NCBI RefSeq assembly: GCF_035582795.1
Contig: NC_134368.1
Location: 34,718,501 to 34,782,500 of the forward strand
Direction of reading: 5' to 3'
Source of the DNA: Mycteria americana
Lineage: Eukaryota; Chordata; Aves; Ciconiiformes; Ciconiidae
DNA: 64,000 nt
Below are positions 28,763 through 64,000 of the stretch, piece by piece (the stretch's first letter is position 1; every line of letters starts with the position of its first letter). The position numbers and the translations under genes were made by a program. A model generated the notes under the pieces. It saw nothing but the letters and a program-made list of their open reading frames with translations. It did not search any database and was not told the DNA's origin.

Positions 28763-28979
28763 TCATCTCGGTGATACTGTAGGACTAGAGAAGTTACCAG
28801 AATTTCGTGGGGACTGAAGAGGCACGGATGGAGAACTGGGAGACAGTTTTCTTGGGCTGCATAGGTCGCCATTGTGCAACTTCCACAGAAGTTCTTCATT
28901 TTCCATTGACAGGCGTTTGTTTACTTTTGATTCTTTCTCTAGCGACTCCTGTAAAACGGCTTGCTCCGTAGAAAGTTGC
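28763..28979 (-). CDS. MTUS1: MTUS1 last coding exon and stop
   Basis: The acceptor is ACGTTTGCAG. It encodes [37 protein letters not shown] and the tail [15 protein letters not shown] ... [16 protein letters not shown], then TGA. The Ser-Pro dipeptides are candidate proline-directed phosphorylation sites. Confidence 0.97.
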
Positions 28980-31900
28980 CTGCAAACGTAAGACATACAT
29001 CAGAACACATAACCCAAGTTGGAGACTACAGCATTGAACTTAATTGTTAAAGAAAGGTTCGAAAGTGCATAAACCTTGCTTGGCTTACAACTAAGTTAAT
29101 TCCTTAAAATGAGGATTTAGCGTGTTCTCATCATTGCTGAATTTAAACTGGTAGCTTGCAGAAAGCAGGAGAAAGTACCAGTAAGAAACATTCCTAAAGG
29201 CCAGAAAAAGCATCTGAAAAGTGAGACTTGTCCTACTTACAATGACAGATGCTTTTAAATGGCCGTGCTGGAGCCTTTGGGTCTTGTTGTGGGCTCAGCT
29301 GTACACAGAAGCTGCATTTCTTTAGTTTCCTTCGAACTGGAAGTTTGCCCATCCGTTTAAGCAATAGTTGAAGTTAGGAGAACCTCAGACCCATTTTATT
29401 CATGCTAATTATTCTACTACTGCTAAATAAAACACACTGGTCTTTTCACTGATCTAAATTGGGGACAAACCACTCAACTGAAGTGGTTAAAAGTAAAGCC
29501 AGGTTTAGCTCACAAGCCAGTAATACTTAAAGAGCCAATCTATAACAAGGTGATATTTCCGAGTTGCTTTTTCTTCCCTGAAATACTGTTTTGGAGCACT
29601 GAAGAACATACTGAGCCTTTACCCCCTTACAGTCTGTTCCTGCTTGTTCTTCTACATAGGAACGCACATTTGTAGAGATACAAGTGGGGAAGAAAGGGGC
29701 GTGTTCTTTTACAGAGTACTACAAAATCCCAGTCACTAATATTTACACAGAATTTTCTTGTCACAGGAACACCTTCCCCTGGTTCATAAGAACATCTAAA
29801 AGTCCACAGATATTTTTCACCTTGAAAGCTCCACGTGTTTGTCCATCCGAGCTTTTAATTCTTCGTTTTCTTGCTGAACCTTCTTTAATTTTTCCATTAA
29901 GATCGTGTTGTTCTCCAGCTTAAAAAAAAAAAGGTCACAGTTCAAAATAAAACCCATACATGCACCCATCAAGATACTGACTGAGCTATCACAGACGTTC
30001 ATAATCTAGAGTTTGCAGACCTTGTTATGGGAAGTGCAAAAACCTAGAGTAATGTGAGACTGACCTGCTGTCATGGCTTCATATTCTGTAATGGTCAAAT
30101 AGATCCTACTTACCTTATCCTTGCATAACACTGGCATTTTGCCACTTGCGCTGATTAGATGCCAACAAAGGAGGATGGGATAAGGGATCTGCTAGTTAAC
30201 CAGTACGTTCTAGTAACTTCTATCAGTGACAGGCAGCAGTTTTAGAAGCTGCTGCAGACAGAAGACTATCTAGAAATAACATGCTAACGCGACAAATTCA
30301 AGAGCTTCCCTGGGTAAACAGCTCTCCCTGTTGCTCTCCTGATTCCACTTCATTCCTGCAGAATGTTATCAAAAGCTAAGGAAAAACTGATTAAATGGCT
30401 GGATGGTCCAAGGGCTTCCGTACTGTGGCCAACGTCTGTCAGAGAAGATGAAGGTTTACTCGTAATTTACTAGTAATTGTAGACCAGGGCAACATATGGT
30501 GCTGTACAATACTGAACAACTGACATGAATGTATTCGTTTGTATCCAGACCTCTTTCTATACTTCCTCATTACAATCTTGCTTAAGTGAGTATTACAACA
30601 GCGTTCAAAGGCCCCACCCAGGATAAGGGCCCTGTCCTGCCACGAAAAGAGCGTGCTAAGTAATTACAAGTTCTGCCCCCAAAATTGCCTTTTCCTGTGC
30701 AATTATGCACAGATCAGGAGCAAATCCACACAGCTGAACAAGCAGCTTAAAGATAATAGCTAAAATGTTTGATCTAAGCTAATCAACTCAAGATGAAAAC
30801 ATTTATTCCATTTCATATTTGATCCCTTCTTGTTTAATTAGGATCATTTCCGTGTTCATGTTCTCCTGACAGTGCAGTCTGTCTTCCGTAACACTCCAGC
30901 AAACATAGCAGGTAAGGATGTTTTCTTTGGGGGATGGGGGAGAAGAGAGGGAAGAGGAAAGGAAACGTGGAAGCGGCTCCCAGATAACCCCGTACTAAGG
31001 CAGCAATAGTTGATGCAAACTGGTAGTTGTCTTAAGAGGTTAAAAGGTCATTTACAGCATCTGGCGATTCCTTCCTCCTCTTTACATTACAGCCCAATGC
31101 AGGTATAATTGTACCAGCAAGGTAAGAACATCCCTTTATCATTTCATGTTTCATTTTAAACAAAAAAAACCCAATTAATCCTTGCACATAAGTCTGAGCA
31201 GCCCGAGTTCATTATCAGAACATAACTCAGAGACACAGTCCAAACCATGCCAGACCCCCAGGAACACTCACCAGTTTTTCCATCTTCATTAACTTTATGT
31301 CCTGCTGATGGAGTTTCTCATTCTTGATCTCCAGCACTGCTTTCAAACTTTCCAGCTCCTGTTCCAGATACATAATCTGCGGGTTTTTCTGAAAGATTTC
31401 CACAGAGTTTGCTTAGTACCCTGAATTTCAGGAACAATTTAAGTGTTTCTCTGCTATTTAGAAAGAGCAAGAAAATAAATATGGTAACAGCAGTTACTTG
31501 TTCTAAGTGAGATCAAGTCAAATAGTTTAGAATAAAAAAAAAAAAAAGAAAAAGATCTGCTACCACTTTCTCCTCTGATTTTCTGATTTTGTCTGTCCTT
31601 TGGTGTAGGTGGACAGTTGCAGTTTTCCTTCGAAGCTATTCAGAAAACACTTCATGCAGAAATGTGAAAAACCCTTGTGAGTCAAAGGAAGGCACTAAAG
31701 CTGTCACAGCAAAACTTGTTTTGCAGGAGTGCCCAAAGGCTCCCTTTAAGGCTAGGAGTTCCAAAATTTATTTCATGTTACTCATTAATTACCTCTTGGG
31801 ATGGGTTGAATAAACATTTGAAGAGATCTGAGGTGCTGGAGTAGTTCAAAAAGCACAAGAAATTTAAAGCTATGAACTTGACTGTAGCTGACTTTCCCTG

Positions 31901-34900
31901 TTTTGAGTCTGAAGGTAGCTGGTTCATAAGCAGAAATCAGATTTTTTTTTTTTTTTTTTTTTACATTCTCATAGCGTGGCAATGCAATTGCACGTAAATA
32001 TCTTGCACTGCTGTACATCCATGACTTATCTACAATACAGCAAGCTAGGACTTCCTTTTTTATTTTTCCTTTTTTTGTTGTTTTCCAGGATACAGAGGGG
32101 AGAGCAGGAGGGGGACAGGGCAGGGCCAGATCTGGTTTCCTCAAGGACCTCTTTTCCAGAGTAAGGAACAATTCAAACACTGCAGAGTAAAACATATTCT
32201 CTACGTTTCAAAGACAAAGTCACAGGCAAAAATAAGGAGAAATAAAGCAAGCCTCAGTCCATTTCCAGGTAGTCCGAGTGGAACACAAACAGAAACGAAT
32301 CAATGATTAAGTGTGTTGCGTAACTAAGTTTATCTTTAAAAACAAACAAAACTTGTTTTAGCATACGTGGGTAAGAATAGTGGTGTACCGCATTGAGTAA
32401 CAGCTTCACTGCCGCATCAGAAACGTAAGACTTGGCGGGCAATGCCTGCGGTTTTGTGGGGCGCAGTCCCACAAGGACAGAGCCAGGACATTTCACAGGT
32501 AACAAGGGCCTCATCACCTACGCATTTCATTCTCCTGCCTGTTTTTAAGGGCTGTGGCATTAGTGATTCCTGTTTAATTCCTACTTTTGAACAGAAGCCT
32601 GTGTGAGGGTGGGGTGTGCTGTGCTGCCTCAGAGGAGGCGGCAGACAATTTGAACTTCATTCCTCCCCTTTGTGGCTTTACATGGAATCTAGGAGCTAGC
32701 AAGAAAAGTCATCCTGAAAAGTTTAAATGCAGCTTACAGTATGTTCAAAATTTAATATTTTTTTCTTTCCCCCCCTCTGCCCCAACGGTCTTAAAGTGTC
32801 TTTAAAGTTAAATCTGAGCTGCCACATTGGCTACTCATAGTAGAACACAGAGCCAGATAAAAAGACTGAAAGGCCTAGATAAAATTTTAGCAAAAAAGAT
32901 GGGAATATCCAGTGACACTAAATAATACTGGAGAGTTGGAAATACACCTCTGTCTTCAAAGGGCTAATGGGAATTCTGATAGTGCATTATTTGTGTTTAG
33001 TAGAGAAGAATATACTGGGTCAAATCAGTATTTTTCCATAGAGAAGCCTCAAGCTTATGATATGCCGTATGCTGTCAGAATGCAAAGTGCATTTGCAACT
33101 ATGAAAAGGCACTTGACTATTGCTCCTTTAAATTAAACGGCATCTGAGCATGCCTATGTAATACAGTTCAAACTCTCAAGTGCAGTGTACAACACGTTCT
33201 CTTTGATATCATCTCTCCCAACCACAGCAACATATCGTGGTTGCAGATTCTTCTTGCGGCAGCTCTGCCCTGCCACTAGAATAAGCAGTAAGACAGAAAA
33301 AACATAAATTAAATGCCAGTGAAAACTAGGGCAACTTCTAGTAGAAGCATCCTAAGTGAGTTTTTAAGCATGGAATTTCTCTTCATGGGATAAGCAATAC
33401 TGGTGGTATTCCAGTTATTTCCAGGTAACCGGAAAGATAAGCATGTTTGTGTCTAACCCTCCCAGTGCATGGAAAACCTCTCTCAGAGCACATCTCTAAC
33501 CCAGGAGCATCAGAGATAACAGCAGCCTTGGGAAGAAAGGCAGGACAAAATAAAAGTTTACCTGAAGGATAAATCAGCAACAAGTATGAATCAGTGTTTG
33601 AATAAATGCATTAAAGACTCAAGTGCAAGAAGTGAGTTTTGTGGTAGTGATGTAAGCCCACGCTGATCATAGTGCCGTTAGAACATTTATCGACTGTCTA
33701 GAAGAAAGCTATGGTATGAATTTTGCATACATGTAGGTCTTCAATTTAACTTAGGCTATAACTTAGACCACTGACTTAGCTATTCAACAGCTTTACAGAT
33801 TTATATTGGTAAGGTTAATACACAACACTGTAGTGCTTGAGAAAAACTTCTGGCAGGCGCACCGTTTACATAAAATATTAGTAAGTATGGGAGCCCTATC
33901 AGGCTTGATTGCACACCTTTCATATTATGCATTAAAATAAACCCAGGCTTACAAGACCTGCTCATCTGCATTACTTTTGAAGATCAAGACTTACAAGATT
34001 GGCTTTTTCTTTGGCTATTTGTTTTTGCTCTTCTAATTTCAACTTCTCAGTCAGAGAGTCGTTTTCACATTTTAATTCATTGATTTTCTTCTGAAATGAA
34101 AAGATATGGTATAGTTAGGCCAATAATTCAGTGCACGTCTCCAAACTGCCTTTTAAGTTTTAGACTGCTGCAATGACCCCAATGCTTAACAAACCTCTAG
34201 CAATTCTTGCTTCTCTTTAAAGGAATCTTCAAGCGACTTCCTTTCAGATTCGTGGGCACTCTTGAGCTCTGCAACAAATCATTTTTGCAGATTTTTAATA
34301 CTGCGTAAGACATGAAAATTCTTTTTGAAAAGCAGCAGCACAAAAAGCCAGCCAATACACATCTGCACAGATGCAGAGTCAATGACAACACAGAAAAACA
34401 TTTATCATCAACTGATCCAAAGCATGTACAAAGTATCAGATTTATTACTGCTTCAGATTTGTTGATTGTCTCCTCGCATATCCATTTCATTAGTTGACAG
34501 CGTGTCAATTTCGAAAGCGTTCATCTACATGCAACAAACGGATGAATTGAGCACAAGAGCCACATCTGACAAAAGCTGAGTTTCTGATGGGAAACACGGC
34601 AAAAATTGAGATTTTGTCTTCCAAAACCTTCTAGAAAACCATTTCCTTTCCTACTTTGGAGATGCCACAAAGAGGAGTTTGCTCTTTGATTGCAGTGGAA
34701 GCGTCACCGGTTTTAATGACACAAAAGTATCACTGGAAACTTGGCTATCAAGTGGAGTTGGAGGGAGGATGGAAATCATCCTCACTTAAATCAATTAGAT
34801 GCAATGCCATTTAAAACTGAGCACACTCAGCACCCCCTCCCTGAAAAACCACCTTTGCCCCAGTATACTCTAAACAGCGTGTAATATTTCTCAATATTCC

Positions 34901-37900
34901 CATGTCAGTCTGGAAAGCACATGACCCTACTTATCCTCAATTTCAATTCTGAGGTGCTCCTCATAGAAATAAGGGGGTGAGAGCAATTACTCATTAACTT
35001 GAGATTTTGAGGGCAGACCAATTCAGACATCTTTTACTGAAAGAAAAAGTCATCTCCACTCTTGAACAGTTTTAAAAGTTTAATTCAACTACAATAGGAT
35101 CATGGTTATTTCTGTACTTAAAATGAGACTTGTTAAGTTCCAAAAGAAGGAATTCAGCCAATATTTTTAAAAATAGCTGACTGCCAAGAACAATGAAATG
35201 GACGTATTGATGAAAAAGTTCAAGTATTTTTGTTTGTGACTAGCAGTACTATAGCGTATGTACTTGAATACAAAATACTTGCCTGAAAAAGAGGATTCAT
35301 ACTCCTTTTTCAGCTCCTCTACTTTTTCCGAGTGGCTGTTTTCAAGTTCCAGCTTAAAGTTTTCATGCGTGATATTTAAGTTGTCCACCTGCAATAAGAC
35401 AACATGATTTTCCACCCCCTCCCTTACACATGTCAACTTAACCCTCATTTAAAGTATTGTCCTAATGGCTTTACGCAGTAGATCGAGCATGTTTTAAGTA
35501 GTCTAGGTAGCACTTCACACATGGTCACAGGAAAAGCTAAGCCACATACAACACTTAACAGATGAGAACGATGCCTTACAGTTTACCGCTACCAGCAGGA
35601 TGACGTATGCATGTCGCACACATGGAGCTGTGGCAAAGCAAGGTCACAGGCCAGGTGTGTCTTTATAAATCTTAAAGCTTAAGCTGGCTCAAATAATCCA
35701 GTGGAGCTCCAGAAGTCATTGAAGCTTGCGGAACACAAGGAATCTCCACCATGTTTAAACACAAGCTTACGATCTGGACAAGCGTAGTAGTATTTTTATA
35801 GTTGCAATGAAGTAGAGTTTCACATTAGATAAAATAACCCCATTATTAATAAAAAAAACGGTATTATCCAAAGGCTTATTTGCAGCAGAAAGCAATTGCT
35901 AGAGAACATTTCTACTTCGAATGTCACAAACCTGCTCCTGGAGTTGCGCTTTGTACTTTTCGGCTTCTTCAATGCAGATACTTTGGAGTTTCTCACATTC
36001 TGCAGTGTAAAACTGTTTAAGCCTCTCCTCCAGCTCAGCTAAATCATTGTGATGTTGCTGGTTTAACTTCTGCAGAAATCCTTCATAAGCAACTTGCAGT
36101 TCATTCCTGTCTCTCTCCAATTTCTCACAAGCTGCAGAAGTAGTTACTGAAGATGTCAAAAGAAAAAAGAAAAAAAGCAATTGCATCAAGTTCAATGCTA
36201 ATTTCATTGTCTTCATCACGAGTATTAAAGATAGTGAACACTCTGCACAGCAACACGGTTATACAAAGACAAATATAATTTATCCATGAAATGAGTGCCA
36301 CCTCCATGGACACATGAAAAGATCTTTGCAAAAATATCGAACTCAGTGTCTCTTATGCTGAGAATTAATTGAATCTAGTTAAACCAGGAACCCGTATAGA
36401 AAGCACAAGCATGACAGTTTGTCATGACATAGAAGAATGAATGTCTCACGAGAGACACTGGAGTGCTCCAATAAAAAAATTAATTGGATTTGCTACTTCA
36501 CCTAATTTGATCCCATTTCAGTAGTGTATTTGTCAGAGTACTTCACTTTTTGATATATAAGCCACTTAGCTAAATTTGAAAGTCTTAATATCCTGAAGAC
36601 CATCATTCAACATGTTACACTCAGATATGCAGCAGAGAAGCAATTCTAGCCTGACATGACTGCCTAATACAGAACTGCCAATCTGAAATGTACTGCTAAT
36701 ATGCATATGCCCAAGATATTTAAATATGTGATACAGAATAGTTTCAGGCAGCAAGTGCAGAGTATTAAGAAAACAGAAAGAAATGCTGTGTAATTCTCTT
36801 TACATTTATATTAACACAGGTCAGCTAAGAAGACTGCCTAGGTTTGTCTCCCCATATTTACAGCTGATCAGAAGGCAAAACAGAAGGTAGGAACTTGTAC
36901 TTTTGAGTTTGAAATTTAGCATTCCCAACTCCAGCCAGACAGGCCCGAATAGGAGGAGTCCTTTTCCTACTGTTAACACGACCGGAGCACGTGCCTTAAT
37001 GCAGTTCAGCTGCACCCAAAGCCTGGAAGCAAGGTGAAACAGGACCTCTCACACAAGCGCGTGGCCACTGACCTTAAGCAAAACTGCTTCTATACAGACT
37101 CTAGTGCTTTGGTTTAAAATAAATTAGTCAGATGAGTGTCTACTTAAGAGAAAAATCAACTAAAATGTTAACTTGATCTTGAACCAAATATGGGAGAAGT
37201 CATGCATACATACACTCGGGCAGCTCGGCACACTGCCCAAGCAGTATAAATATACTCTATGTAAAAGCATGGGAAGATTCAAGGATTTTTGTCCAGGCAG
37301 TGCAGGAAATTCTCACCACAGCTGTGTTGGAGCCTGAAGACATATAAATGACAGTATCTTCAAGGACCGATTCCCAAAGCAGTACTGGGCTCAGCTCTAG
37401 GGAAAGCAGCCTGCCCCAGCAGAGTGCCTCAAGTTACACACGTGTCGGATTCCCTCTTTGCTACGGCTCATCAAGAGCAAGTGAGTAACGTGATGAACGA
37501 TACTTGCACTCTCTGAAGGAAACTGTAAAGACGTCTTAGCCCTGCTGCCATCACTTAGAACCTGTAGTTGAACTAGGAAGTGTAAGAGAATGAGCTGTAC
37601 TGCATGGAAATCAATCTGCATGTGTGTCTACCTGAATTAGTTTTAACAGCAGGCTTAGCTCTGTGCTAGGTCTGTGTGATAGATCTGCTGATCAGGACAG
37701 ATTTAAGCCAAGCTGTTCATCCCGTGACTGGCAGTGATGCAACTAAAGGCTCAACTGAAATGTACCACAACCCAGGGAAGCAGTGGAGTCACCATCCCTG
37801 GAGGTATTTAGGAGACGTAGATGTGCTTAGGGACGTGGTTTAGTGGTGGACTTGGCAGTGCTAGGTTAGTGGTTGGACTTGATGACCTTAAAGGTCTTTT

Positions 37901-40900
37901 CCAAGCTAAATGATTCTATGATCCTGTGCAACCCAAGCAGATTTCACAGTCTTCTATACTTTCTATACCACCACCAAGAAAGATTTTTATTTCCCTACCT
38001 TTATTCCTTCCACAAACTTGTATTATAATTGCTCCCTTTGGAAAAAAATTGAAAAATTAGCATTCACGCTTCTATCACATCGCATTGGTGTAACGTTATT
38101 GAATATATATGCTCGTATTGTCATGCTTTTGGGGAAGAGGAAACGTCCTAGGTAGGGGACATTATTTTATAATGCAAAGAACCAGGCAGCGAGCCAAATG
38201 GAGACATTACACAGCCAACCACATGCAGAAAGGATCTGACCCTCTACAGCAGAGTAAGAGGGGTACAGCTGAGAGGCAGGCAGCTCACATGCCTCATTTG
38301 AGATAACTGTAGCAAAATGCTTCAAATGATCCACTTCCTTTAAAACCAACAGAGGAAGAAACAAGCATCCAATTCTTTATTTGTAAGGCCAGAGCCATTT
38401 GTTTGCCTCCATTTAGCTAAAAGAATGTGCTGCCTATCATTGTCTTATCTTTAAATGTCAGCATGCAGAACTTCAGATGATGCAAAACACTTCAGAACAA
38501 AAGCAAATGGCAAACCACGCCTTTGTCAAAGAAAATAGACACATCAGTTCTCGTTCTGCCAGTCTGCAATTCAGATTTATGAGAAGACTAATGTTACAAA
38601 GGCAAACAAAAACTTCTAAACTTGCATTGGCAGTTAAACGTTGTGTTACCTTGAAGGTTAACATGTGGCTTCTGCAAAGCTGGAGGCTGCAATGCTTCCT
38701 TGCAGATCACAAACCTGACTCAAATCCTTGCCATCCAAACAAGGAGCAGAACCACCACACAACCAGTGAGCTCCCAGTATCATGGTGGTGAAAGAAACTG
38801 TGCATGTGAAGCTTCAGCAAAAGCACCAACTGAAGAATTGTCCATTTCAATTATGAGAAGTCCTGTAAACCAAAATTTGTCCCCATACTCGAGATTCAAG
38901 TGTCTGCAGCAAGTATTTTGCAGTCCTATCCATCTCCAGACTGAATCATGTATTTTATGACTGTACACTGCCTTGTTTTAAGAAAGGGACAAGCCATGAA
39001 AAAGGCAACTAATTCCTTAGTTTGGCCACTCATCCACTGCAAGTGGATGCTGCAAAACTCCTGACTAACCAAACTTGATAGTTACTCAAGAGTTTTCTCA
39101 TTGAACCAGTGCTTAATTTTGAAGAAAAATTTGTAACTGGAACATGTGCTCTTCCAGTAGCACACACAAAATCTCTATTTCGACTTCTCATCCACTTCCG
39201 AGACACTTGAAGGGCATGCTTCAGAGTTTTTGTACATGACTACTGTGCTTCCTTTCCCTTCTTAAAGCGCTTCCCTCTGCAATTCTACATCTTCATTATG
39301 CCACACATCATAACAGACCACAGACCTTGAGCAAGAAAACAACAGGAGACAAATGGTCCAACAGCATTTGAGAGAAAATCAAGCCATACAGATGAAAAGA
39401 GGCACTATCCATTTGTCCATTAAGTTTGCTCAATCTCATCTGTAACGCTAAACAGTTTTAAGCTTTAAGGATAGAGCATATGGAATGGTGTACTTGACAG
39501 CCAGAAGCAATATTTACTTCTTTATTCAAATAGCAAAGCCATTAATATTTTTCCCCCACTTGGTTGTCCCAGCCTCCCCTCCCTATCATACAACACTGTC
39601 TCTCCCTGTATTATTACAACAGGGAGCAAGATTAATCTGTATTTTTAGGCTTCTTAACATCTGTTTATAATAAACGAAGAGCCTGGTTCTTTTGGGCAGA
39701 ACCACAACCTCTGGCAATCACAGGAAGTTTCTGAGATTTGGTAACAGTGTAAGTTCAGATCAGAAATGCTGGTTTTGATATGTAAAATTAACATTCGTCT
39801 GTAGTAGTTAACAATGGCCAAAGCTTTGTATGTGCCAGAACCATAAAACAAATGCCTGCAAAAGAGAAGTGTGGAGAACCAGGCAGATGGCAACTCCCTC
39901 AACAGTGCAAACGGCAGCAGATCCAAACCACAGGAACAGTAGCACCAGCTGAAGGAGAGGACTACAAAAGTTGCCTTAGTATCCCCAAGAAATCCATTTC
40001 ATATTTTCAGTAAAAGTAGCCAAGAGATAAGACCTTACAAGTGTGCAGTATCTCCTTCTTACAAAATCTAGTTTTTTCTTATTCTAATTATAAAACAATT
40101 TATCGTCCAATTCAGTTCTTATGGCTAAACTGCTCACATAAAAACATTTTTCAACTTACATTCCCCTAAAAGTCACCATAACCATAGCTCTAAGAAGATA
40201 AAACATAATGGATCTTTTTTTTTTGAAACCTGAGTTAAGTTGTTTTGAAATAAAAGTTATCTTCATAAAATTGTCTAAGTCACTGGTCTAGTTATGATTT
40301 ATGAAAAGCCATTAGACTGTCTGACATTTTGAAACAGAGGTCACAAGGACAGTAAACTAGCAGCATTTTAATAGATGTGGGGGATGTAAAGAGGGGATAA
40401 TTACCAGAAAACATCAAGTATTTAGCATGGTGTTATGTTATGTCACAGCACATAACACTTTACTGCTCTAACTTCATATTTCACATTGCAAGATATATTG
40501 TATATGTTCTGTTGACCAGTTGACCAGTACACCAGTACAGCTGACCAGTAAGTCTACAGTAGACACAAAGGCTCATTTCCTTCTCCATATAATATTTTTT
40601 TTAAAAATTGTTATCTAATAATTAATTCGTGGTTTTGGCAGATTCTCAATATTGGGAATTCTTCTATGGAAACATGATTTCAAGCTTAGGACCAAGTTTC
40701 TCTTGGTGTTGCTTCTATAACGAGACTAACGGTACAGGACATTAAGCCACATTTCATATTTTTGTTCTTGGGCAAGTTGAAACGAGGCAGGTAGACGAAA
40801 AAAGCATGCTTTAAGCTACATTTAAGTGGGTATGGTTGAATACATATGTGAAGCATTTGGATACCTGCCAGGACGTAAGTTCCTATCCTCTAATGCTGCA

Positions 40901-43900: not shown

Positions 43901-46900
43901 GAGAAGCTGTGCTCTGTTGCTTCAGCTGGGGGGACAGGAAGATGCCTCCCTCCCCATCAAGCTTACAACTCTGAGTAGTTGTCAGGGAATGCCCACCTTA
44001 TTAATCAGCACTAAAAAATAAGTCTGAACATTAAATGCACCACCTGCATGTAACAAGACCTACATTCACACTCAAGTTTGGCTGAGACAATACTCAACTT
44101 CCAAAGCATGTGAAAATAAACATTTCCAACTTTTCAATAATAAGTGACATATCTGAAACTGCTCCACACATATCACCTCTGCTTTCAAAGTTTTTTTTTC
44201 CTTTTTTAAAGGGGCTTCATCATAACAGAAGTGTGATTTTATGAAATGCTAGCTTCACTTTCCAGTGCTGTCATTTTCAATCCAGTGACTTTTTGCACTC
44301 CACAAGATGATTCTGCTTTGAGTTCAAATAAATTACATTAAGTTACCATTAAATGCAGTTAAAATCAAGCTTTAAAGTTGGCAAAACCAGCCTCTGCACA
44401 TTATAGCTCAATTTCATATTATAGCTGTCCACTAGGATGAGTTCAAAGATTTAATCTCATTAGCCTGATAGCATTTCCTTCTGTTAATTTTACACTCATT
44501 CACCTACAAGCCACTACAGCAAAATGCAGATTTTGCGCAGTATATTTCACAGGTTTATGGATTTTTGCCAGCAAATCTCTAGAAGACAGCGTACAAATAA
44601 GTTAGGGATCAAACACAAGTATATATACTGTCAGCCACGCTCCCATTTTTAAGAAAGTGAGTGCTTTGGTCAGACACATGTTTTGCAAGGAGGCCCCGCT
44701 AGGCACAGTCTGATCAGTGCCAGGAATTCGGTGAACCTGGGGTCATGCTGTCAGGGCTCCAGAGAAATGCAGCGATTAAAGCATCTGAGCAGAATTCAGC
44801 CAGGGAATTAAGTGACTGCCATTACAATACCAGGGCATCTGTCTTTCCACAGATCTGTTTTGTTGCATTTCTGTTCTCATGAAGAACACAAAAATAAATT
44901 CTTACCTAGTTCTCCTCGAAGGTTAATTAGTTCTTGAGACAACTCTTTACGCTGTTTCAGTGCTTCCTCCCTCTGCAGAGGCAAAAACCAAAACAAAACA
45001 AAAACAAAAAACCAAACATTTGGTTACTAGTGATCTGAGCAGGGCACTTTCCAATAATTAACTTATGTGTGTTCTGTAGGAAAACAAGAGGCAGGAGCAA
45101 GAAGCCAAGATATGAATCATTTAGGATAACAATTCTACTGTTACAAAATACACAGATGTTCTTCGGTTGTTAAGGAAGTTATACTTTAAAACAAAGAATA
45201 GCTTTTTCCAGGATAACACTGCAATTAAAATCCTCCTTTGCAGCAATTAATTATATATTTTATGACGGGTGTAGCAACATAAGCCTCCAGAACAAATCAG
45301 CTGATAGCTGTCAAGGGCACAAAAGTACGGTATATATGTGAGAGAGGCATGCATTAAATACTTATCTTAAGCTTACTTAAACACAGGAACAAAAACTTTG
45401 CTAAATGCTCAGTCTTCCATGAAGGAAAGGCACAGCCCTGTTCAAAGTTGAATATAACCCACCCCGCTGCAATTCTTAATTTTAAGATAGATGATGTTTC
45501 TTATAAATGAGAGAATCATAACAAATCTGTGCTCAAAGGAAGTAGAAGCACCCATCTCCCCACTTCGCCTAGGAGCTGCGCCTCAGCCAGGGGAAGGCAG
45601 CCGGCCAGGCCCCTCTGCCCCCAGACCCGCACCCTGGGGAGAAGCGCAGCCACGGCCACGGCCACGCCGCCCCACGGCTCGGTAGCGGGGACCTCGCACC
45701 CGCGGCCGCACTGCAGAGGTGACGAGGTGCTGGCTTCCCGCTGCCGGGGCACTTTCACCTTGCTCACAGCCAAGCTCCCGTCCAGCTCCCTGCCGTCGGA
45801 AAAGCGCTGCGAAACAAATACCAATTACCCTTGCTGCAGCACACTGAGAATAGAGGCACAGTTTGCTGCTAGAGCAGCCCATCTTCCAGCTCCGGCAGCC
45901 CCCCGCTCGGCCCCCCGGCACTCATAGGCGACGCGCAGGTGGCACCACCACCAGCCCGGCTGGTGCGGCCCTGGCCGAGCGGCAACGCTGGACCTTGCCT
46001 CCGCAGGTTACCCTACTTCCGCGCCGATCGCTCCCGACAGCGGCAGATACTGCAGCTTCTGCAATTGGCACAAGCAGCCAGCGATTACTTAAAGCCACAG
46101 CCCTTCTTTTATGAAAGGCGAGCCCCAGACATTAGACCGATCGATCTCCGCTTGCTCAAACGGCAGCCGGGATCGCGAAGGGAACGCTGCCCTTCTCTGC
46201 GGATAATGGAGCTTATTTTTAGCCGTTTCAAGCTTGCTATACGCTGCTTTCACACTTAATCTGTTGATGCAAAAATAAGCCACGGGAGGCCTTAGCTGAA
46301 TGGGAGAGCCACAGACACAGCAGCTTTGCTGCTGCCAATGCCCAGGCTTACGTTCATAGCCCCTGCGCACGCAAAGAGCTCGAAACTCACTTTGCATGCT
46401 TTTCCTTCAGCTAGGATACATTAGAGAAAAAACAGTAATAATGGACTGGTGCAAAAATCACTTAGACTTTTTCCATTAGCTACGACACAACGGACCACGG
46501 TGGATGAGTTCACACACTGGCAGGGCCACGCCTGCACCTGGTTTTCCCCAGGGAAAACCTCACCTTTGCAGCAGGTTCCCCATTTGCCCCCAGTCACTCT
46601 CGCCGCAGCCTGACCCCAGGCTAACATCGGCACTTGCTCGCCAGGTCACCTGGTTAAGAGCACCCTGTCCCGGAGGTAAGGAATACTCACTGCATGCCTG
46701 CAGAACAAATACAGCAGTAAAATACACCGCTCTTAAAAAGAAAAAAAAAAAAAAAAAAAAGCAAATGAGCACCCAGAAACCAGTCATGTATTAAGGTCTG
46801 ACACAAGACTAATCAAAATGAGAAATTTTTATGCTATGCACTCTCATCTGCTGCAAGTTATAGGACATTATTTTGCAGCTGAAAAGGCTGGCTAGAAGAA

Positions 46901-49900
46901 AGGGCCAGCCTTTTACTAGACATATTTGTATTTTTGACCTTGTATAGGAAAGATCCCCTTTTAATCACTACAGTTTAAGCAGTCTTAACAGTTATTTGGA
47001 CACTGAGACACACTGGTAGGGGTATTAAGTAGCTGTGTTGCAGTTTTACATTAAGCACTTAGAAGCTTTTTACAGTGACAGTAGGCTAAGATTGAAAACC
47101 ACGCCTCGCCCTCCACGGTAAATTCTCTGGAGAGCAGAGAGCTCAGTTATTGAAAGGACTCGCCCTGCTCTCCCCTGCTCAGGAAGGAGAGATGAGTCAT
47201 CTCGCTCCTGTTCAACACCAGTTCCGCTACAGACACTGCATCCAATGATGCAAACGTGAATGCTGCAGTGAGTTATTTGAGCCGCATCCTAGCACGCTGG
47301 GACACAACCACGTAGTGGATCTGCAAGCAGGTTAACTACCAAAGCACTTTTCATGCTGCGGGCTCCTGATGGGATTTTCCAAAGCTTTTACAGTAACCTG
47401 GTCCATTACTAAATTAGTGCACAAACACATTTAGGGGATTTTTTTTTTTTTTTCTAATGTGCCCCCTCCCCTTGGTTTGCATATTCATTCTTTATTCTAA
47501 TTCTCAAGAAGTCATCCTTGAACCTGATTTCTTCCAGCCCACTCTGTTAGTAAAACATCTCAAATTTTCCCCCCTCAGCCTAGTGGCTGGACCACGCTGC
47601 AGACCCTTAGGAAATGCTAAGGTTTTTGGTTAGCGTTTCCAAAAGGCCTGCTTCATGGTCCACACATTTTGTATTTCACAGAATCACAGAATCACAGAAT
47701 CATATAGGTTGGAAAAGACCTTTAAGATCATCGAGTCCAACCATAAACCTAACACTGCCAAAAACCATCACTACACCATGTCTCTAAGTACCTCATCCAA
47801 ACGTCCTTTAAATACCTCCAGGGATGGCGACTCAACCACTTCCCTGGGCAGTCTGTTCCAATGCTTGATAACCCTCTCGGTGAAGTAAAATTTCCTCATA
47901 TCCAGTCTAAACCTCCCCTGGCGCAACTTGAGGCCATTTCCTCTTGTCCTATCACTTGTTACCTGGGAGAAGAGACCGACCCCCACCTCTCTACAACCTC
48001 CTTTCAGGTAGTTGTAGAGAGCGATGAGGTCTCCCCTCAGCCTCCTTTTCTCCAGGCTAAACAGTCCCAGCTCCCTCAGCCGCTCCTCATAAGACTTCTG
48101 CTCCAGACCCTTCACCAGCTTCGTTGCCCTTCTCTGTACGCGCTCCAGTACCTCAATATCCCTCTTGTAGTGGGGGGCCCAAAACTGAACACAGTATTCG
48201 AGGTGCGGCCTCACCAGTGCCGAGTACAGGGGCACAATCACTTCCCTAGTCCCGCTGGCCACGCTATTTTTGATACAGGCCAGGATGCCATTGGCCTTCT
48301 TGGCCGCCTGGGCACACTGCTGGCTCATATTCAGGCGGCTGTCAACCAACACCCCCAGGTCCTTCTCTGCCAGGCAGCTTTCCAGCCACTCTTCCCCAAG
48401 CCTGTAGCGTTGCATGGGGTTGCTGTGGCCCAAGTGCAGGACCTTGCACTTGGCCTTGTTAAACCTCATACAATTCACCCCAGCCCATCGATCCAGCCTG
48501 TCCAGGTCCCTCTGCAGAGCCTGCCTACCCTCAAGCAGATCAACACTCCCACACAACTTGGTGTCGTCTGCAAACTTACTGAGAGTGCACTCGATCCCTT
48601 CGTCCAGATCATTGATAAAGATGTTAAACAGAACTGGCCCCAACACCGAGCCCTGGGGAACACCGCTTGTGACCGGCTGCCAACCGGAGTAAACTCCATT
48701 CACCACCACTCTCTGGGCCCGGCCGTCCAGCCAGTTCTTTACCCAGCGAAGAGTACACCCGTCCAAGCCATGAGCAGCCAGTTTCTCCAGGAGAATGCCG
48801 TGGGAAACCGTGTCAAAGGCTTTACTGAAGTCTAGATAGACAACATCCACAGACTTCCCCTCATCCACTAGGCGGGTCACCTTATCATAGAAGGAGATCA
48901 GGTTGGTCAAGCAGGACCTGCCTTTCCTGAACCCATGCTGGCTGGGCCTGATCCCCTGGTTATTCTCTACATGCCGTGTGATAGCACTCAGGATGATCTG
49001 CTCCATCAGCTTCCCCGGCACCGAGGTCAGGCTGACAGGCCTGTAGTTCCCCGGGTCCTCCTTCCGGCCCTTCTTGAAGATGGGTGTCACATTCGCTAAT
49101 CTCCAGTCAGCAGGGACTTCCCCAGTTAGCCAGGACTGCTGGTAAATGATGGAAAGGGGCTTGGTGAGCACATCTGCCAGCTCCTTCAACACTCTCGGGT
49201 GGATCTCATCAGGCCCCATAGACTTGTGAGTGTCTAAGTGGTGCAGCAGGTCACTCACCAACTTGATGAAGTTGAGTGATGATTCTCATCACTCACTTGA
49301 TGAGAAAAGGGCATATGAGATCAGAATATACTAAAGACTGACAGAGGCTGAGACTAAAAACCCAAAATAAAATAGAATTAAAAAAAATTAGTACGCCAGT
49401 GTTAAATGTTTCTTGCTTTCTGCTGCTCTCAAGCCCCTTTGCTTTTTACTGGTGCTGTTTAACCTTGCGCCTCAACCCCCAGTTTGTCCATTCATAGTTT
49501 CGCAAATCAAGAAATCCAGACAGACTTGTATCATCACCTTGTGTTAAAGAATATATTCAGAAAAAGCTAGCCATAGAGACTGCCAGCCTAAAATAAGATG
49601 AATAAGTTGCTCATAAGGTTAAGCAGCCACATGAAGTAGTCAGACTGACTAGCAGTTAATTTAGCACACTTTTCTCTAAGTTCCGAGAGAACTGAAGCTC
49701 CAAGTACAGGGATCTCCCCAAGAAAACATGAAAGTTTCCAAGATCCGAAATCGTTAAGTGCAGCGAAATACCAAAGACCACTTGAATAATCCAGTAAGGG
49801 CCATCTTCAGTATTTAATTTAAAGACAGGTATGCATGTGCTTTGGGCTGGAATACTGAGCAACATTCTAGTTTATGCTTTACAAGATTCTAGTTGAAAAA

Positions 49901-52900: not shown

Positions 52901-55900
52901 AAAGTCAGCAATTTTAGAAATGAATTTTTTTTAACTCACCTTCCCCCCACCCCACTTAAAAAAAACCCTTGAATTTTTTCTTTCACATCACTCAGATGCA
53001 AAAGCAAGCTAAAGAAATGAGCCAAAGAAGTGGCACAACAAACCGGATTTACACCCTCTGCTCCATGTATATTTTTGAAAGCAGAAGCACACTATTACTG
53101 CAATAAAGTGAAAATGTCATTAACCATCTCAAATCAATAAATATACAGTGAAATAACTACTTCCAAGTCACTCTTGGCCTTGTTAGTGTTATGCATTACA
53201 TTGTTACCAAATGAAATATGCAATCAGTTTTCACCTTGACTTATTACTTCAAACTGAACACAATTACTTATTACTTCAAACAGAATACAATTAAGCCTCA
53301 GAATACAACACTTAACATGATTAGCTGATAGAAACGCACTGTAATTTCTAATATTTTACTTCTCTCCTTTGCTAGATACATTTATGGAGAAACAGATGTT
53401 TATTCCGATGTTTAGTGTGTGAAACACTAAAGCAGAGAACCAGCCAAACAGGATTCCTATGAGTCACTTAATATTTAACACAGATCATATACTTGCGGGC
53501 TCTTTATGCTTTTACAAGCTTTACATGGGATATTATGCTCACATGGGATCTTTGTTTTCCCATTTAGAAGTGATGTCCACCATCATGCAATAGCTTTGCA
53601 AAGTTAGGTCCAGGTGTACTAATATGGGCTATTTAACCTTACTTCTCTGAAACAGCCATTTTCTACTCTACAGGGTTTCTGAACTCCAATACTAGTTTTC
53701 ACTTGTCACATTGAATGATTCCTTCCTTCCCTGTAAAAATTCTGATCTCATAAAACGAAAAGTTTACCCTATTTAAGCAATTATGTATTTCTCCGTATCT
53801 TCTGAAGTTTTCTGTCTCAGTTCATCTCATCTGAGTATGACACAAAGTCTCCATCAGATACCCTGCAGCTTTGACAAGTTATACTGTCACAACTTAAGTT
53901 CTCACGTCTGTAAAATCACAATTACCTTCACAAAGTTCTTTGAAATGTTAGAATATGAGATGCTATGCTTGAGCACAATATTACAGTATTTTCTTTATGT
54001 CATTCCATTTTTAAGGCTGTTTACAATTTCATCTGAAAAGGCAGTACAAAACAAAAGAGGGAAACAAGAAGCAAAGACGTTATTTTCTTTCTTCCACTAA
54101 CTGCTCCCTTTAGTTTTGATTTTGTAATAGATATATGTAGTTTGCTACTGTCCTTAATTCTGCATCTTCCTGAAGAAAAAAAATCAGGAGAAATAAGGTA
54201 GTCATGAGAATCAACTTCTTTACGGAAAGCAACACTGGTTGCCTGAAACGCCAAGTTTGTTTCAGTCAAAGATGTCTTTTCTCAAGATACCTTTTGCTAG
54301 GAGGAGCTGCAGGACAGGACTCCTGATTCTCTCCAGCTGTAACCCATTCTGAATACCCAGATGAACCCAATAAATTGCTTAACCTAGGCATCTTCTAAAA
54401 AGTTATTTCCACCAGAGCCTAGTCTCACAGTAATTAATGGATTAAAATCTTTTTCTGGATGTTAGAGCTCACAAATCTTCAACCTGCTGCCAAAAATATT
54501 CTTGTCCATCAGCAGCCACATGTTACAGTGACCTTGAGAGTAATTTGAAAACTTCCTTGCTTTCCAACAGCAACCTGTCAGATGCAAACTGCTAGAGCCT
54601 AGGTTTGTTTTACAGGGGGAAGCTACTGTGTTATTACTCAAATACTCTCCCTTACTGAACAGAAAATATTTGAATTCCTCAAATTCAAGATACTATCTTT
54701 TGACTTAAGTGACTTTTTTTTTTAAATCTGAAGAAACACCAAAATTATTTAAATTAAATATCCTTATTCTCTCTTGTAAAAAGTTATGTCTGTATTTTGG
54801 GAAGCCAGATTGAAAGAGCAGAAGTACACTTTGGATGAAAATCCTAATGAGAACCAGCCAAGTTTGATGTTAGGTTCTAGAAAATGAAAACTATAAATTT
54901 AACTTAAAGACAGCTGCTCTAAACAATAAGCCTGCCAATATATTTTGGATTTATAGGCCAAAAATATGACTGTTCCAAAACTCTTCCTTTTACAATAAAT
55001 GGTTTTGGGTTTTTGATGCAATGTGTACTTCTGCTCCTTAAGCTAGATATGCATTTCTCATTTGATAAATACAAACATTTGGATGACCAAGGACGTTTGG
55101 ATGAGGTGCTTAGGGACATGGTGTAGTGGTGGTCTTGGCAGTGTTCGGTTTATGGTTGGACTCGATGATCTTAAAGGTCTTTTCCAACCTATACGATTCT
55201 GTGATTCTGTGATTTTCTGCTGAACTTCCACAAAGGCCAGGACAAATTTTTCTGATACATGTGTCCACGTATTCCAAGATGGAAAAAAACCTCTTTCAAG
55301 TGCTAAGAAGTTCCCAACAAAACTAGTATCTCAACTCTTATAGTCATCCACATGTCAGGAAATGCCAGTTATAGTAGCTCATATACTAATGGTTAATTTC
55401 TATTTCCACCTAGAAATACTGAAGCCTGTTTCAGCCACAAATTTCTAGCATATTACTTATGTTGCTTCCTGTGTTACATCCACAATTAGTGGTATCCACG
55501 TCTTATTGTCAAGGCTCTCAAATATATATATAGCCTCTCAAATGGCATTTCCCTCTATGAAGGAAACTTCTTGAAGATGTCACCACAGTCATTCCCAAGT
55601 AAAGTTTGAACTGTAAATACCAGTCTTCCTGTAACTATACCAAGAGAAGCACAACAGTGAAATTTAGTTTCTGTTCATCTCTGTAGCACCCTGTGGCACA
55701 GACACAAATCTGAAACTCATTTCTACAGCAGAATCTGTTGAGAGCTCTTTGAAACACTCAGATTCATTTATTAAACTAGAAGAACAGAAATGGGTGTCTA
55801 TAATAACTAAACATTTTACCACCTGGAGTTTTTTTAAACAGCCTGATTAGTTCTAAATGTGGCAATTTATGCATTAAAATGAGGATGAAAAGGTGAATTG

Positions 55901-58731: not shown

Positions 58732-60319
58732 CATTCCCATTATTCTTAAAAAAAAAAAAAATCATGTTTAAACTCAGTGACCTGTAAAATAGCCTGGAAG
58801 AAGCAAAGACGTATGACAGGAGGCTTCTCATTAAATATTACATTGATAAAAGTATTCCTGAATTTTAAAAAGTTGCAATACAACATATTTGAGAGAAGAA
58901 ACTAGCCCAAGACATTTAATTATAAAAGTTACCAAAAATCAAGGTGCTTATTATACAGTAATTAGAAGATTGCACAGAAGTTTAGCAGTGAGAATTTCAC
59001 ATATAAATATCACAATTTCATATTAGATGACAGGCATCCAAAAATCCTGTATCAAATTTCTTTGAAGATCTTAAACTAGTTCCTTAGCAGAGAAAGGTGT
59101 TCCAATCAAGAGTTTAAAAAACCCAACCAAACCAAACCCAGAAAACTGGCTAAGAGCCACTGCTCTTACTGAGTTGAACCAGCCTTGGACTTAAATGCAG
59201 TATTCTTAGATGAAATGCGAGCAATCAGATGATATCCCACAAGAAGAAAATGTTACCTTTCTGGTAGCATACTAAGACAAGTCAGTGCTTTTTTTGTATA
59301 CCAGACTATAAAATCACTGCACATCGAAACAGCTGAAATAAAATTGATACCAATCTTGGAACATTCGTTATAAATGCAAGAGAAACTGCTATTAAAGCCT
59401 GCATCAACTGTTGCAGCATAAATCCATAACTGTTATAATTTCCTTAACTTCAGATTTTTCTTCTCTCAAAAATTTTCAAAGCAGACCAGAAGTTTCTAGT
59501 GTAATATCAAACTGATTAGGCCATTATGTATGTCAAACAGACTAGAACAAATAAACATTAAACCACATCAGATTAATTCCACTCTAAATTACAGGTGCAT
59601 TTTTTTTTTTAATGAAACGTTGATAATTTTAAGACACCACCAATAATGCAGGATTCAATAAATATAACCATTATAACTCATACTTTATTCTGAATAGCTC
59701 AAAACCATATCTACCCCTTATATACTCTTCTACCCAATGTCAGATAACAAAGCGGGGTCATGCCAATTATCTGTTGAAACTAGTCTTTCTTACAAGGGCA
59801 GAACTTGAAGTATATACTTGGAAAGGTACTCAACCCTGAAGGATTCTCTGACTACAAACGTTTAAAAACTTCTCTTCTAAAAAGGATGTGAAGCTGCAAA
59901 GAGGCCATAAAACTCAGTCTCAGGGTTTTTATTTTTTCTATCCAACTGATGCCAGGAGCAGGTTTACTGCTGCCTCCACAGGGAAACAGAAATCACTGGA
60001 ATGAAAACACAGGTGTTATCTATCAGTATATTAATATTTTCAGAAGCCCTTGTTGAGAAGACTTCAAGTTAAAGCCAAAATCGATTAGCTCAAGTTTTTA
60101 CCTCAGACTGCAGGTGCTGGATCACAACTGTTAATGCTTCAAACTTCTGGTTACTGCTTGTCAGGAATTTTTTCAGCTGCAGGATGATTCCACTTTGGGT
60201 CTCACATTTTGTTTTGTACTGCGTCAACTCAGCTGTTTTTGCGCCAGGCGAATGCACATCTGTGGAGGCTTGAGTCTGTATGCACGAGCTCCTGGGACTC
60301 CGCTGCTTGCCCTTGTCAA
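28763..60319 (-). CDS. MTUS1: Microtubule-associated tumour suppressor 1 (ATIP), shared C-terminal coiled coil, 5'-partial
   Basis: Nine coding exons on the - strand (60102-60319, 44906-44972, 35932-36146, 35283-35388, 34195-34268, 33995-34090, 31272-31388, 29821-29918, 28763-28979) join in frame to 1208 nt, about 402 residues ending in TGA at 28765-28763. The product is nearly continuous Glu/Lys/Leu coiled coil from [10 protein letters not shown] through [15 protein letters not shown] and [14 protein letters not shown] to [13 protein letters not shown] Ser-Pro-rich tail follows, with six S-P sites. This matches the C-terminal region shared by all human MTUS1/ATIP isoforms. Known family roles are binding the AT2 angiotensin receptor tail (ATIP1) and microtubules with EB1/MCAK (ATIP3), acting as a growth suppressor. 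The isoform-specific N-termini lie upstream, beyond the window. All introns are GT-AG except one GC-AG. The next gene, PDGFRL, converges on it. Confidence 0.95.
28980..29820 (-). other. MTUS1: MTUS1 last intron (0.84 kb)
   Basis: Plain intron between the last two coding exons; nothing else recognised. Confidence 0.85.
29821..29918 (-). CDS. MTUS1: MTUS1 penultimate coding exon ([14 protein letters not shown])
   Basis: The acceptor is a T-rich tract ending TTAAG; the donor is GTGAAA. It encodes [13 protein letters not shown] then [19 protein letters not shown], and ends with two bases of an Arg codon completed by the last exon. Confidence 0.94.
29919..31271 (-). other. MTUS1: MTUS1 intron (1.35 kb)
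   Basis: Plain intron; nothing else recognised. Confidence 0.85.
31272..31388 (-). CDS. MTUS1: MTUS1 coding exon ([16 protein letters not shown])
   Basis: The acceptor is AATCTTTCAG and the donor GTGAGT. Thirty-nine codons in phase 0 encode [20 protein letters not shown] then [19 protein letters not shown], almost identical to the human protein. Confidence 0.96.
31389..33994 (-). other. MTUS1: MTUS1 intron (2.6 kb)
   Basis: Contains a poly-T run near 31940-31962 and an A-run near 31533. No coding exon or repeat family is recognised. Confidence 0.85.
33995..34090 (-). CDS. MTUS1: MTUS1 coding exon ([13 protein letters not shown])
   Basis: The acceptor is TTCATTTCAG and the donor GTAAGT. Thirty-two codons in phase 0 encode [18 protein letters not shown] then [14 protein letters not shown], collinear with human QINDLKSENDALNEKLK. 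Confidence 0.95.
34195..34268 (-). CDS. MTUS1: MTUS1 coding exon ([14 protein letters not shown])
   Basis: The acceptor is TTTGTTGCAG and the donor GTTTGT. It encodes [15 protein letters not shown] then [10 protein letters not shown], collinear with human EIKKGHEIEKKSLED. The intron to the following exon is only 104 bp. Confidence 0.93.
34269..35282 (-). other. MTUS1: MTUS1 GC-AG intron (1.0 kb)
   Basis: The intron starts GCAAGT at 35282 (- strand) and ends TTGTTGCAG at 34269. Nothing else is recognised inside. Confidence 0.88.
35283..35388 (-). CDS. MTUS1: MTUS1 coding exon with a GC donor
   Basis: The acceptor is CTTATTGCAG. It encodes [17 protein letters not shown], then [18 protein letters not shown] and one base. 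The donor reads CAG|GCAAGT, a GC-AG intron with an otherwise perfect donor consensus. The frame continues correctly (G+AG gives Glu) into the next exon. Confidence 0.93.
35932..36146 (-). CDS. MTUS1: MTUS1 coding exon ([12 protein letters not shown] ... AQLQEQ)
   Basis: The acceptor is ACATCTTCAG and the donor GTTTGT. It encodes 71 full codons of coiled coil, from [10 protein letters not shown] to [15 protein letters not shown], collinear with human STTCEKLE ... EEAEKYKMQLQEQ. Confidence 0.95.
37768..37928 (+). mobile_element. CR1 LINE 3' tail
   Basis: CAGTGGAGTCACCATCCCTG, TTTAGTGGTGGACTTGGCAG, GGTTGGACTTGATGACCTTA and AAGGTCTTTTCCAAGCTAAA follow CR1 3'-end order and finish with ATTCTATGATCCTGTG, a decayed 8-bp terminal repeat. 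It lies antisense to MTUS1. Confidence 0.92.
40512..40550. repeat. Short degenerate tandem of GACCAGT
   Basis: GACCAGT-type units recur about four times (TTGACCAGTTGACCAGTA, CACCAGTA, CTGACCAGTA). It is a minor simple repeat in an MTUS1 intron. Confidence 0.6.
44906..44972 (-). CDS. MTUS1: MTUS1 coding exon (REEALKQ ... NLRGEL)
   Basis: The acceptor CCTCTGCAG is preceded by a long pyrimidine tract; the donor is GTAAGA. It encodes 22 codons, [18 protein letters not shown] then RGEL, and one base. It starts in phase 0, so it can also accept the candidate alternative exon at 45829-45882. Confidence 0.95.
45560..46200 (-). promoter_or_regulatory. MTUS1: Intragenic CpG island, candidate internal MTUS1 promoter
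   Basis: A block of very high GC and CpG content sits in otherwise AT-rich intron. On the - strand it lies across and upstream of the candidate MGCSSSK exon. Open frames on both strands here reflect GC richness. The boundaries are by eye. Confidence 0.6.
45829..45882 (-). CDS. MTUS1: Candidate alternative first exon of MTUS1 with a myristoylation N-terminus
   Basis: On the - strand the ATG at 45882-45880 has a strong Kozak context (A at -3, G at +4), and an in-frame TGA lies 39 bp upstream (45924-45922). It opens [18 protein letters not shown] and then reaches a donor AGG|GTAATT in phase 0. Joining to the next MTUS1 exon (44972, phase 0) gives ...AAAR-REEALKQ in frame, a protein of about 347 residues. 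Gly2 with Ser6 fits the N-myristoylation consensus, and Cys3 fits adjacent palmitoylation. It sits within a CpG island, as expected for an internal promoter. MTUS1 is known to produce short isoforms from internal promoters; I cannot confirm this exact one. The donor is of moderate strength. Confidence 0.6.
46738..46760. repeat. Poly-A run
   Basis: Twenty-odd A residues with one early G, in an MTUS1 intron. Not attached to a recognised retroposon. Confidence 0.8.
47677..49270 (-). mobile_element. Young 5'-truncated CR1 LINE, sense to MTUS1
   Basis: The element runs on the - strand from about 49270 to its 3' end at 47677. It ends in three copies of the CR1 terminal octamer (CACAGAAT on +). It carries a long open reverse-transcriptase frame followed by the usual short 3' UTR (GGTTGGACTCGATGATCTTA, AAGGTCTTTTCCAACCTATA). 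The 5' end is truncated at a palindromic junction. An intact reading frame implies recent insertion. Confidence 0.96.
47771..49261 (-). CDS. CR1 ORF2 reverse-transcriptase fragment, 5'-truncated
   Basis: This 496-codon open frame on the - strand ends in TAG at 47773-47771. It begins at the truncation point: the first codon counted is TTG, not a genuine start, so no complete protein is encoded. Numbering from there, the reverse-transcriptase blocks are visible: NYRPVSLTS (72-80), QHGFRKGRS (108-116), [11 protein letters not shown] (142-152), [11 protein letters not shown] (199-209) and the catalytic FADD (230-233), then the RT thumb and the C-terminal region ending LDEVLRDMV. The N-terminal endonuclease domain is absent. 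There is no stop or frameshift over almost 1.5 kb. It is transcribed in the same direction as the host gene MTUS1. Confidence 0.93.
49260..49304. repeat. Palindromic cluster at the CR1 5' junction
   Basis: AACTT-GATG-AAGTT (49260-49273) abuts a perfect 10-bp inverted repeat, TGAGTGATGA-TTC-TCATCACTCA (49273-49295). ACTTGATGA occurs at 49261 and again at 49295. This is likely filler created at the truncation end of the CR1 insertion. Confidence 0.8.
53239..53292. repeat. 27-bp tandem duplication
   Basis: Two adjacent copies beginning ACTTATTACTTCAAAC and ending CAATT (53239-53265 and 53266-53292), differing at about three positions. It lies in an MTUS1 intron. Confidence 0.85.
55088..55214 (+). 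mobile_element. CR1 LINE 3' tail, same subfamily as the young copy
   Basis: GTTTGGATGAGGTGCTTAGG, GGTTGGACTCGATGATCTTA and AAGGTCTTTTCCAACCTATA are followed by ATTCTGTGATTCTGTG. It is very close to the 3' end of the 47.7-kb element but only about 125 bp long and in the opposite orientation. Confidence 0.94.
58219..58310. repeat. A/C-rich low-complexity tract
   Basis: Irregular (AAAAC)n/(AAAC)n sequence. Similar tracts lie at 44986-45018 and 63301-63348; such runs are common in bird introns. Confidence 0.75.
58699..58761. repeat. Poly-T (26) followed by poly-A (14)
   Basis: T26 at 58699-58724 and A14 at 58748-58761, 23 bp apart, can pair with each other. No retroposon body is visible between or beside them. 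Confidence 0.85.
60102..60319 (-). CDS. MTUS1: MTUS1 coding exon, first shared exon ([10 protein letters not shown])
   Basis: The acceptor TTTTAG begins phase 1 and the donor is GTAAAA. It encodes [16 protein letters not shown], then [11 protein letters not shown] and [15 protein letters not shown], aligning with the human segment EKSRQKNPRSLCIQ ... TVVIQHLLSE. The upstream partner exon must end with one base of a Val-type codon; none is certain within the window. Confidence 0.94.
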
Positions 60320-62930: not shown

Positions 62931-64000
62931 CTATAGAAGGCATGCTGTGATGTCAAAACAAAAGCCATGCTTTCATTAAAACAAAAGCATCACGAGTCTA
63001 ATTACTGATACAACACATCAGTGATGGACTCTAAGTTAAAGACAGTATTGGCTACCAGCCCAAGCCCTTCTCACTTTGGCCTTTTTACTTGCCACCTTTA
63101 AACAGCCAGACTTCTGAAGCCGAACAATTTCCACCCTTAAGTTAGGTTCTGGACTCTGCTCCAACAGGCTCAAAAACACTGTACCCAATCTAGTTGAAAT
63201 GCTCCATTTCAGAAGACTAGAAATCAGATTCTCAAGTACTGTATGTAGCACAGTAACTGGACAGAATTACCATCTAAGGTCCTATCCTTCTTCTTACCAG
63301 TAAAAAACCCAAAACAAAACAAAACAACAAAAACAAACACACACACCCAAGATAGCAGTGATTTTGCAAAGACTGAGCCTTGTGATCATTGAATCATTCA
63401 CAGAAGATTCATAATTTCGTTGGCAAAAATAATACCCCATGTCCTTGGAAAAGGTCCGGAAATCCTCCCACTCCCTCTGCAGTTGCTACATGGATGGCAC
63501 TGCAGACTCCAGGTCTTTGGGGAGAATATTAGACCCATCCCAAGCTTTTCCACAAAGCAAACTGTTTTCCATACACAGCTTCTGTAGTTAATAGGTGTTC
63601 AGAAGCAAGAAATACACAACTGTCTGTACATTAGGGTGTGTTCCATAAAGTTATGTTTAAGCACTGAGGTACGGCCCAGTACTTGACATTGTACTTGACT
63701 GGCTGGCTATCTCAGAACTTGCCTGGTACTGCTGGCTTCCTGAGCCTCTCCATCTTGTGCACTGTTGCTGGATTACCTGATGAAACATCTATCACCCACT
63801 TTTTGGTTTGCAGAGCCAAATCAAAGCCTTCCTTTGCTCATCATGTACTAGGAAGGTCTGTGTAGTAATGTTTATGTTAGCTAGAAATTCTTTTCTGTAA
63901 GCAAAAGATTAAATGTCTAAAAAAATTACATTTCTTAAAAGCATTGCAAATAGCCCAAACAAAACTACTCGACAAGCACAAGTAGGAACAACCTCACTTC

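Follow-up and report, generated by a model that had tools for sequence, protein, structure and literature searches.

A putative internal first exon with an N-terminal acylation signal in the probable MTUS1 gene of Mycteria americana

The probable MTUS1 locus and its neighbours

The stretch of DNA analysed, hereafter the window, comprises 64,000 nucleotides of the Mycteria americana genome and carries on its minus strand a chain of exons that probably belong to the bird MTUS1 gene, as judged from the protein they would encode. Between position 44972 and the stop codon the joined exons specify a tail of 329 residues, and an alignment of this tail with that of a human ATIP1 sequence gave identity in 247 of 329 columns; the human sequence used has 436 residues and a mass of 50.5 kDa, as against 436 aa and 51 kDa in the literature, with which it agrees. 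The chain begins with E1 (44906..44972), which comes directly after CTCTGCAG, and continues through E2 (35932..36146), E3 (35283..35388), E4 (34195..34268), E5 (33995..34090), E6 (31272..31388) and E7 (29821..29918) to E8 (28763..28979), at the end of which lies the stop codon. All are joined in phase, E3 by means of a GC donor (CAG/GCAAGT) which yields the reading frame expected from the human protein.

Upstream of E1 lies an exon of 72 codons (60102..60319, minus strand) that is common to the known long forms of MTUS1. It terminates in ...CAGTCTGAG before the donor GTAAAA and ends in phase 0, so E1 is entered in phase 0. A region near 63400-63600, inspected by eye only, was unconvincing as a first exon like that of ATIP1, and Rfam returned no matches over 28000-64000.

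Other features of the window were also recorded. The intron between the 60102..60319 exon and E1 contains a stop-free frame of 504 residues (47771-49285, minus strand) that reads as the reverse transcriptase of a LINE, which we take to be of the CR1 type and which points to a bird, and repeat fragments related to the 3' end of this frame occur at 37771-37928 and 55089-55214. At the left end of the window there is a very strong CpG island (1-1150, GC up to 0.84), and an Ig-like frame is found on the plus strand at 22281-22550; both may belong to PDGFRL, presumably the convergent neighbour of MTUS1.

A candidate first exon within a CpG island

The feature of main interest is E0, the coding part of a candidate alternative first exon at 45829..45882 on the minus strand, in the same intron as the reverse transcriptase frame. 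Its ATG, at 45882, has a strong Kozak context (A at -3, G at +4), and from there 18 codons run to 45829 and stop exactly at a donor (AGG/GTAATT) in phase 0. An in-frame TGA (45922..45924) precedes the ATG, which is the fourteenth codon after it, and the stop-to-stop frame holding E0 covers 45921-45583. An earlier note on this DNA, made from the letters alone, had described the ATG, its context, the upstream stop, the peptide, the donor and its phase, all of which match base for base. When E0 is joined in phase to E1-E8 the product has 347 residues, the length which that note had given for a coiled-coil isoform, and everything that E1-E8 encode is retained in it, namely the C-terminal coiled-coil tail by which an MTUS1 isoform would be recognised. 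No Pfam family was found in the product at E 0.001, and a PDB search gave only five weak coiled-coil matches, the best at E 0.019. In viral and prokaryote collections the pattern of the exon had no match in either; the product gave 178 and 27 pattern stretches respectively, none of them confirmed, a result that says little or nothing on conservation.

E0 is surrounded by a CpG island (45450..46400), defined by base composition and proposed here as its promoter. The island had also been claimed previously and is indeed present, with a GC content of 0.62 and a CpG observed/expected ratio of 0.80 over 45500-46250. A scan in 300-base windows found just two long islands in the 64 kb, this one and that at 1-1150, besides two single CpG windows at 48551 and 51801. 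On the minus strand the island includes a TATA-like CATAAAA (46107..46113) and a CCAAT (46068), both of which are word matches only, and 45500-46450 has no repeat copy elsewhere in the window at E 1.

How often such a combination would arise by chance was estimated from the ATG codons of either strand of the window (60-base margins excluded) that are followed by a glycine codon, have a purine at -3 and open a frame of 7 codons or more. There are 41 such starts, 13 of which fit a looser and 5 a stricter myristoylation pattern, and 3 begin MGC with serine or threonine at position 6. Only one, E0 itself, has in addition to the pattern an in-frame stop upstream of the ATG and, within 40 codons, a donor in phase whose score is at least that of the E0 donor. 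In second-order Markov controls the combination occurred 4 times in 4 Mb of island composition and once in 4 Mb of intron composition, a rate per Mb of strand of 0.25 to 1. The numbers predicted from this are about 0.001 for the island, 0.004-0.015 for the intron strand and 0.03-0.13 for the two strands of the window together. These figures should be considered with caution and are too low, because the criteria were chosen after E0 had been seen and the island-composition model was trained on 950 bases only. The argument of the earlier note, that agreement of CpG island, Kozak context, motif and phase makes chance less likely, is nevertheless in line with them. There is the possibility that everything here is coincidental, a CpG-rich stretch of intron devoid of promoter activity, and the 3 of 41 starts with MGC and S/T at 6 speak in its favour; given the scarcity of long islands in 64 kb and the low joint chance, we regard this as very improbable.

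The strength of the E0 donor is moderate. It lacks G at +5 and, with the weights used, scores 2.87; of the gene's other GT donors, seven were scored, three of them lower than this one and four higher. A second donor at 45759 (AAG/GTGAAA) scores slightly higher, 3.06 vs 2.87, and its phase is wrong for E1 and right for E2. It could be supposed that E0 is real and that this second donor is joined to E2 at 36146, giving a leader that is 41 codons and one base long, in frame and free of stops. Such a joint would leave out E1, which is shared, and would fail to give the length of 342 aa listed for a human isoform (see below), and its being in phase is weak evidence because a suitable exon exists for two of the three phases; we consider it a very unlikely arrangement.

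A further ORF of 18 codons with a weak start context (45869..45925, minus strand) overlaps the start of E0 in another frame, and may possibly lower the translation of E0 or provide a means of translational control. This overlap and the moderate donor lend some weight to the most serious alternative, in which the island does act as a promoter or enhancer but the E0 frame is fortuitous, the transcripts being non-coding or translated from the downstream shared exons. Short frames are common, and the motif criteria were, again, post hoc. However, a frame that unites the motif, a strong Kozak context, the stop and an in-phase donor is found at 0.25-1 per Mb in the Markov controls, and here it coincides with an island; the human isoform moreover has the predicted length. 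A fortuitous frame is accordingly judged improbable, albeit less so than either of the two readings above. The claim made previously, of an internal MTUS1 first exon with an N-terminal acylation signal, stands to the extent that no other reading suits the anatomy better and that chance is unlikely to account for it.

Relation to known MTUS1 isoforms

The isoforms of MTUS1 are reportedly the subject of Di Benedetto 2006 (Gene 380). Those with names in the literature are ATIP1, 2, 3a, 3b and 4 (sources including, in part, PMC3994487 and PMC3566609). The literature covered, in passages, comprised PMC3525946, PMC4393571, PMC3994487, PMC11077360, PMC3566609, PMC3584557, PMC12071853, PMC8202925, PMC7999421, PMC5445029, PMC4200515, PMC2749209 and PMC3763398. 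In the passages that name these isoforms a form of the E0 type is not described, nor is one included in the isoform qPCR studies as far as these were covered, and six strings from the E0 peptide do not occur in the PMC texts searched. The E0 form has in common with ATIP1 and ATIP4 the gene, the C-terminal tail and the use of alternative exons and promoters. ATIP4 has likewise been proposed as a membrane form, but by way of a predicted hydrophobic membrane span of 24 residues and not acylation (PMC3566609, in part). According to the same source the three major forms of the ATIPs share 395 C-terminal residues; they retain the upstream shared exon, whereas the E0 form is without it.

The predicted isoform can be compared in length with the human protein. 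The human tail from E1 onwards we take to be 324 residues, to which a leader of 18 residues would add up to 342. This is the length of isoform 4, one of two unnamed MTUS1 isoforms in Table 3 of PMC3994487, where UniProt Q9ULD2 is cited and isoform 4 is given as 342 aa, 3160 bp and 38 kDa. If instead the paper's 395 shared residues are combined with the 72 codons of the exon in the window (71 in the human exon), the leader becomes 19 residues and not 18. The mass fits less well: 18 residues plus the tail should weigh 39.8-39.9 kDa, and the tail alone 37.9 kDa. The printed 38 kDa is not compatible with the former, so that either the figure in the table or the identification of isoform 4 would be wrong. 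By arithmetic on the same table, the mRNA of isoform 4 leaves 3160-1029 = 2131 bases beyond the coding part, compared with 2508 for ATIP1, 2468 for ATIP4, 1419 for isoform 7 and 474 for ATIP2. This remainder is nearer to ATIP1 and ATIP4 than to ATIP2 and is weakly suggestive of a shared 3' end, a point that isoform 7 dilutes.

Judged by its length, the E0 isoform is probably the counterpart of human isoform 4, and hence probably already catalogued, without a described function: the length equals 18 plus the human tail and a shared 3' end is compatible, though the printed mass is about 2 kDa too light. This makes the E0 form less novel, a human protein of the same length as predicted being listed in a table that cites UniProt. 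Another derivation of isoform 4, as ATIP1 minus E1 and E2, was tried and rejected; the exons of the window would give 436-94 = 342, and with the human E2, which is 4 codons shorter, the result is 346.

Published experiments on MTUS1 bear on the question of how such a form could have been overlooked. In the portion covered of PMC12071853, RACE on mouse heart gave one MTUS1 variant only. The two gene-specific primers match the upstream exon at 60102-60319 in 16/20 and 18/19 bases, and this RACE would have been blind to transcripts starting at 45882, because its primers sit in an exon that the E0 form lacks. In the mouse, an MTUS1 gene trap has been placed between exon 9 and exon 10 (PMC3584557, in part). 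The forward primer used to locate it reads LKQHKTLS, which in the human protein falls within E1, although by bases alone it matches best in the window at 43901 (18/25, vs 16/25 in E1). With the primer peptide placed in E1, the trap would probably remove the E0 form as well; if mice possess such a form, knock-out effects and reporter staining credited to ATIP1 could be partly its own. For a western blot of human bladder lines, the part covered of PMC3994487 reports bands near 60, 80 and 140 kDa, with nothing close to 40, although the antibody might not recognise the E0 form.

Predicted N-terminal acylation and its proposed meaning

The leader begins MGCSSSK and fits the N-myristoylation consensus pattern in having Gly2, an allowed residue at position 3, Ser/Thr at 6 and no Pro at 7. 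N-myristoyltransferase prefers substrates of this kind, Ser6 and Lys7 both being favourable. The only basic residues of the leader are Lys7 and Arg18, which makes palmitate more probable than a basic patch as the second anchor. Gly2 and Ser6, often with a palmitoylated Cys3, are likewise found in Src-family kinases and G-alpha subunits; these are unrelated proteins, and their likeness to the E0 product is limited to the N-terminal signal. A PMC search for MTUS1 with myristoyl gave only papers that appeared unrelated, one for MTUS2 with myristoyl gave nothing, and MTUS is absent from the main texts, as far as covered, of two human myristoylation studies.

On these grounds we think it likely that E0 is a genuine alternative first exon, driven by the island and spliced to E1, and that it gives rise to an MTUS1 of 347 residues which would be N-myristoylated and probably palmitoylated. 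Transcription would start inside the MTUS1 intron from the CpG island with its CATAAAA and CCAAT words, and E0 would be spliced in phase to E1 at 44972, as the signals and frames suggest. Removal of the initiator methionine would then allow Gly2 to be myristoylated, and Cys3, perhaps together with Cys9 or Cys14, may be palmitoylated. The acylated leader would hold the shared coiled coil on membranes, the N-terminal part of ATIP3 being absent. A tie of this short form to the AT2 receptor is speculation based on the common C-terminal region.

The reported locations of MTUS1 products conflict, and include the cytosol, mitochondria, Golgi, nucleus, cell membrane and microtubules (sources including, in part, PMC3566609 and PMC12071853). 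If the reading preferred here is true, a short, lipid-anchored product of a separate promoter would offer a simple origin for the signal that C-terminal antibodies give at membranes. We suggest, tentatively and with somewhat more doubt than conviction, that a conserved, short and doubly acylated MTUS1, made from its own CpG-island promoter and lacking what ATIP3 has at its N-terminus, acts as a membrane-tethered coiled-coil partner or competitor of the microtubule-bound and the AT2-linked forms. If so, it may have escaped notice, with RACE primers placed upstream of it and a gene trap that would have removed it together with ATIP1, and it could explain some of the reports of MTUS1 at membranes.
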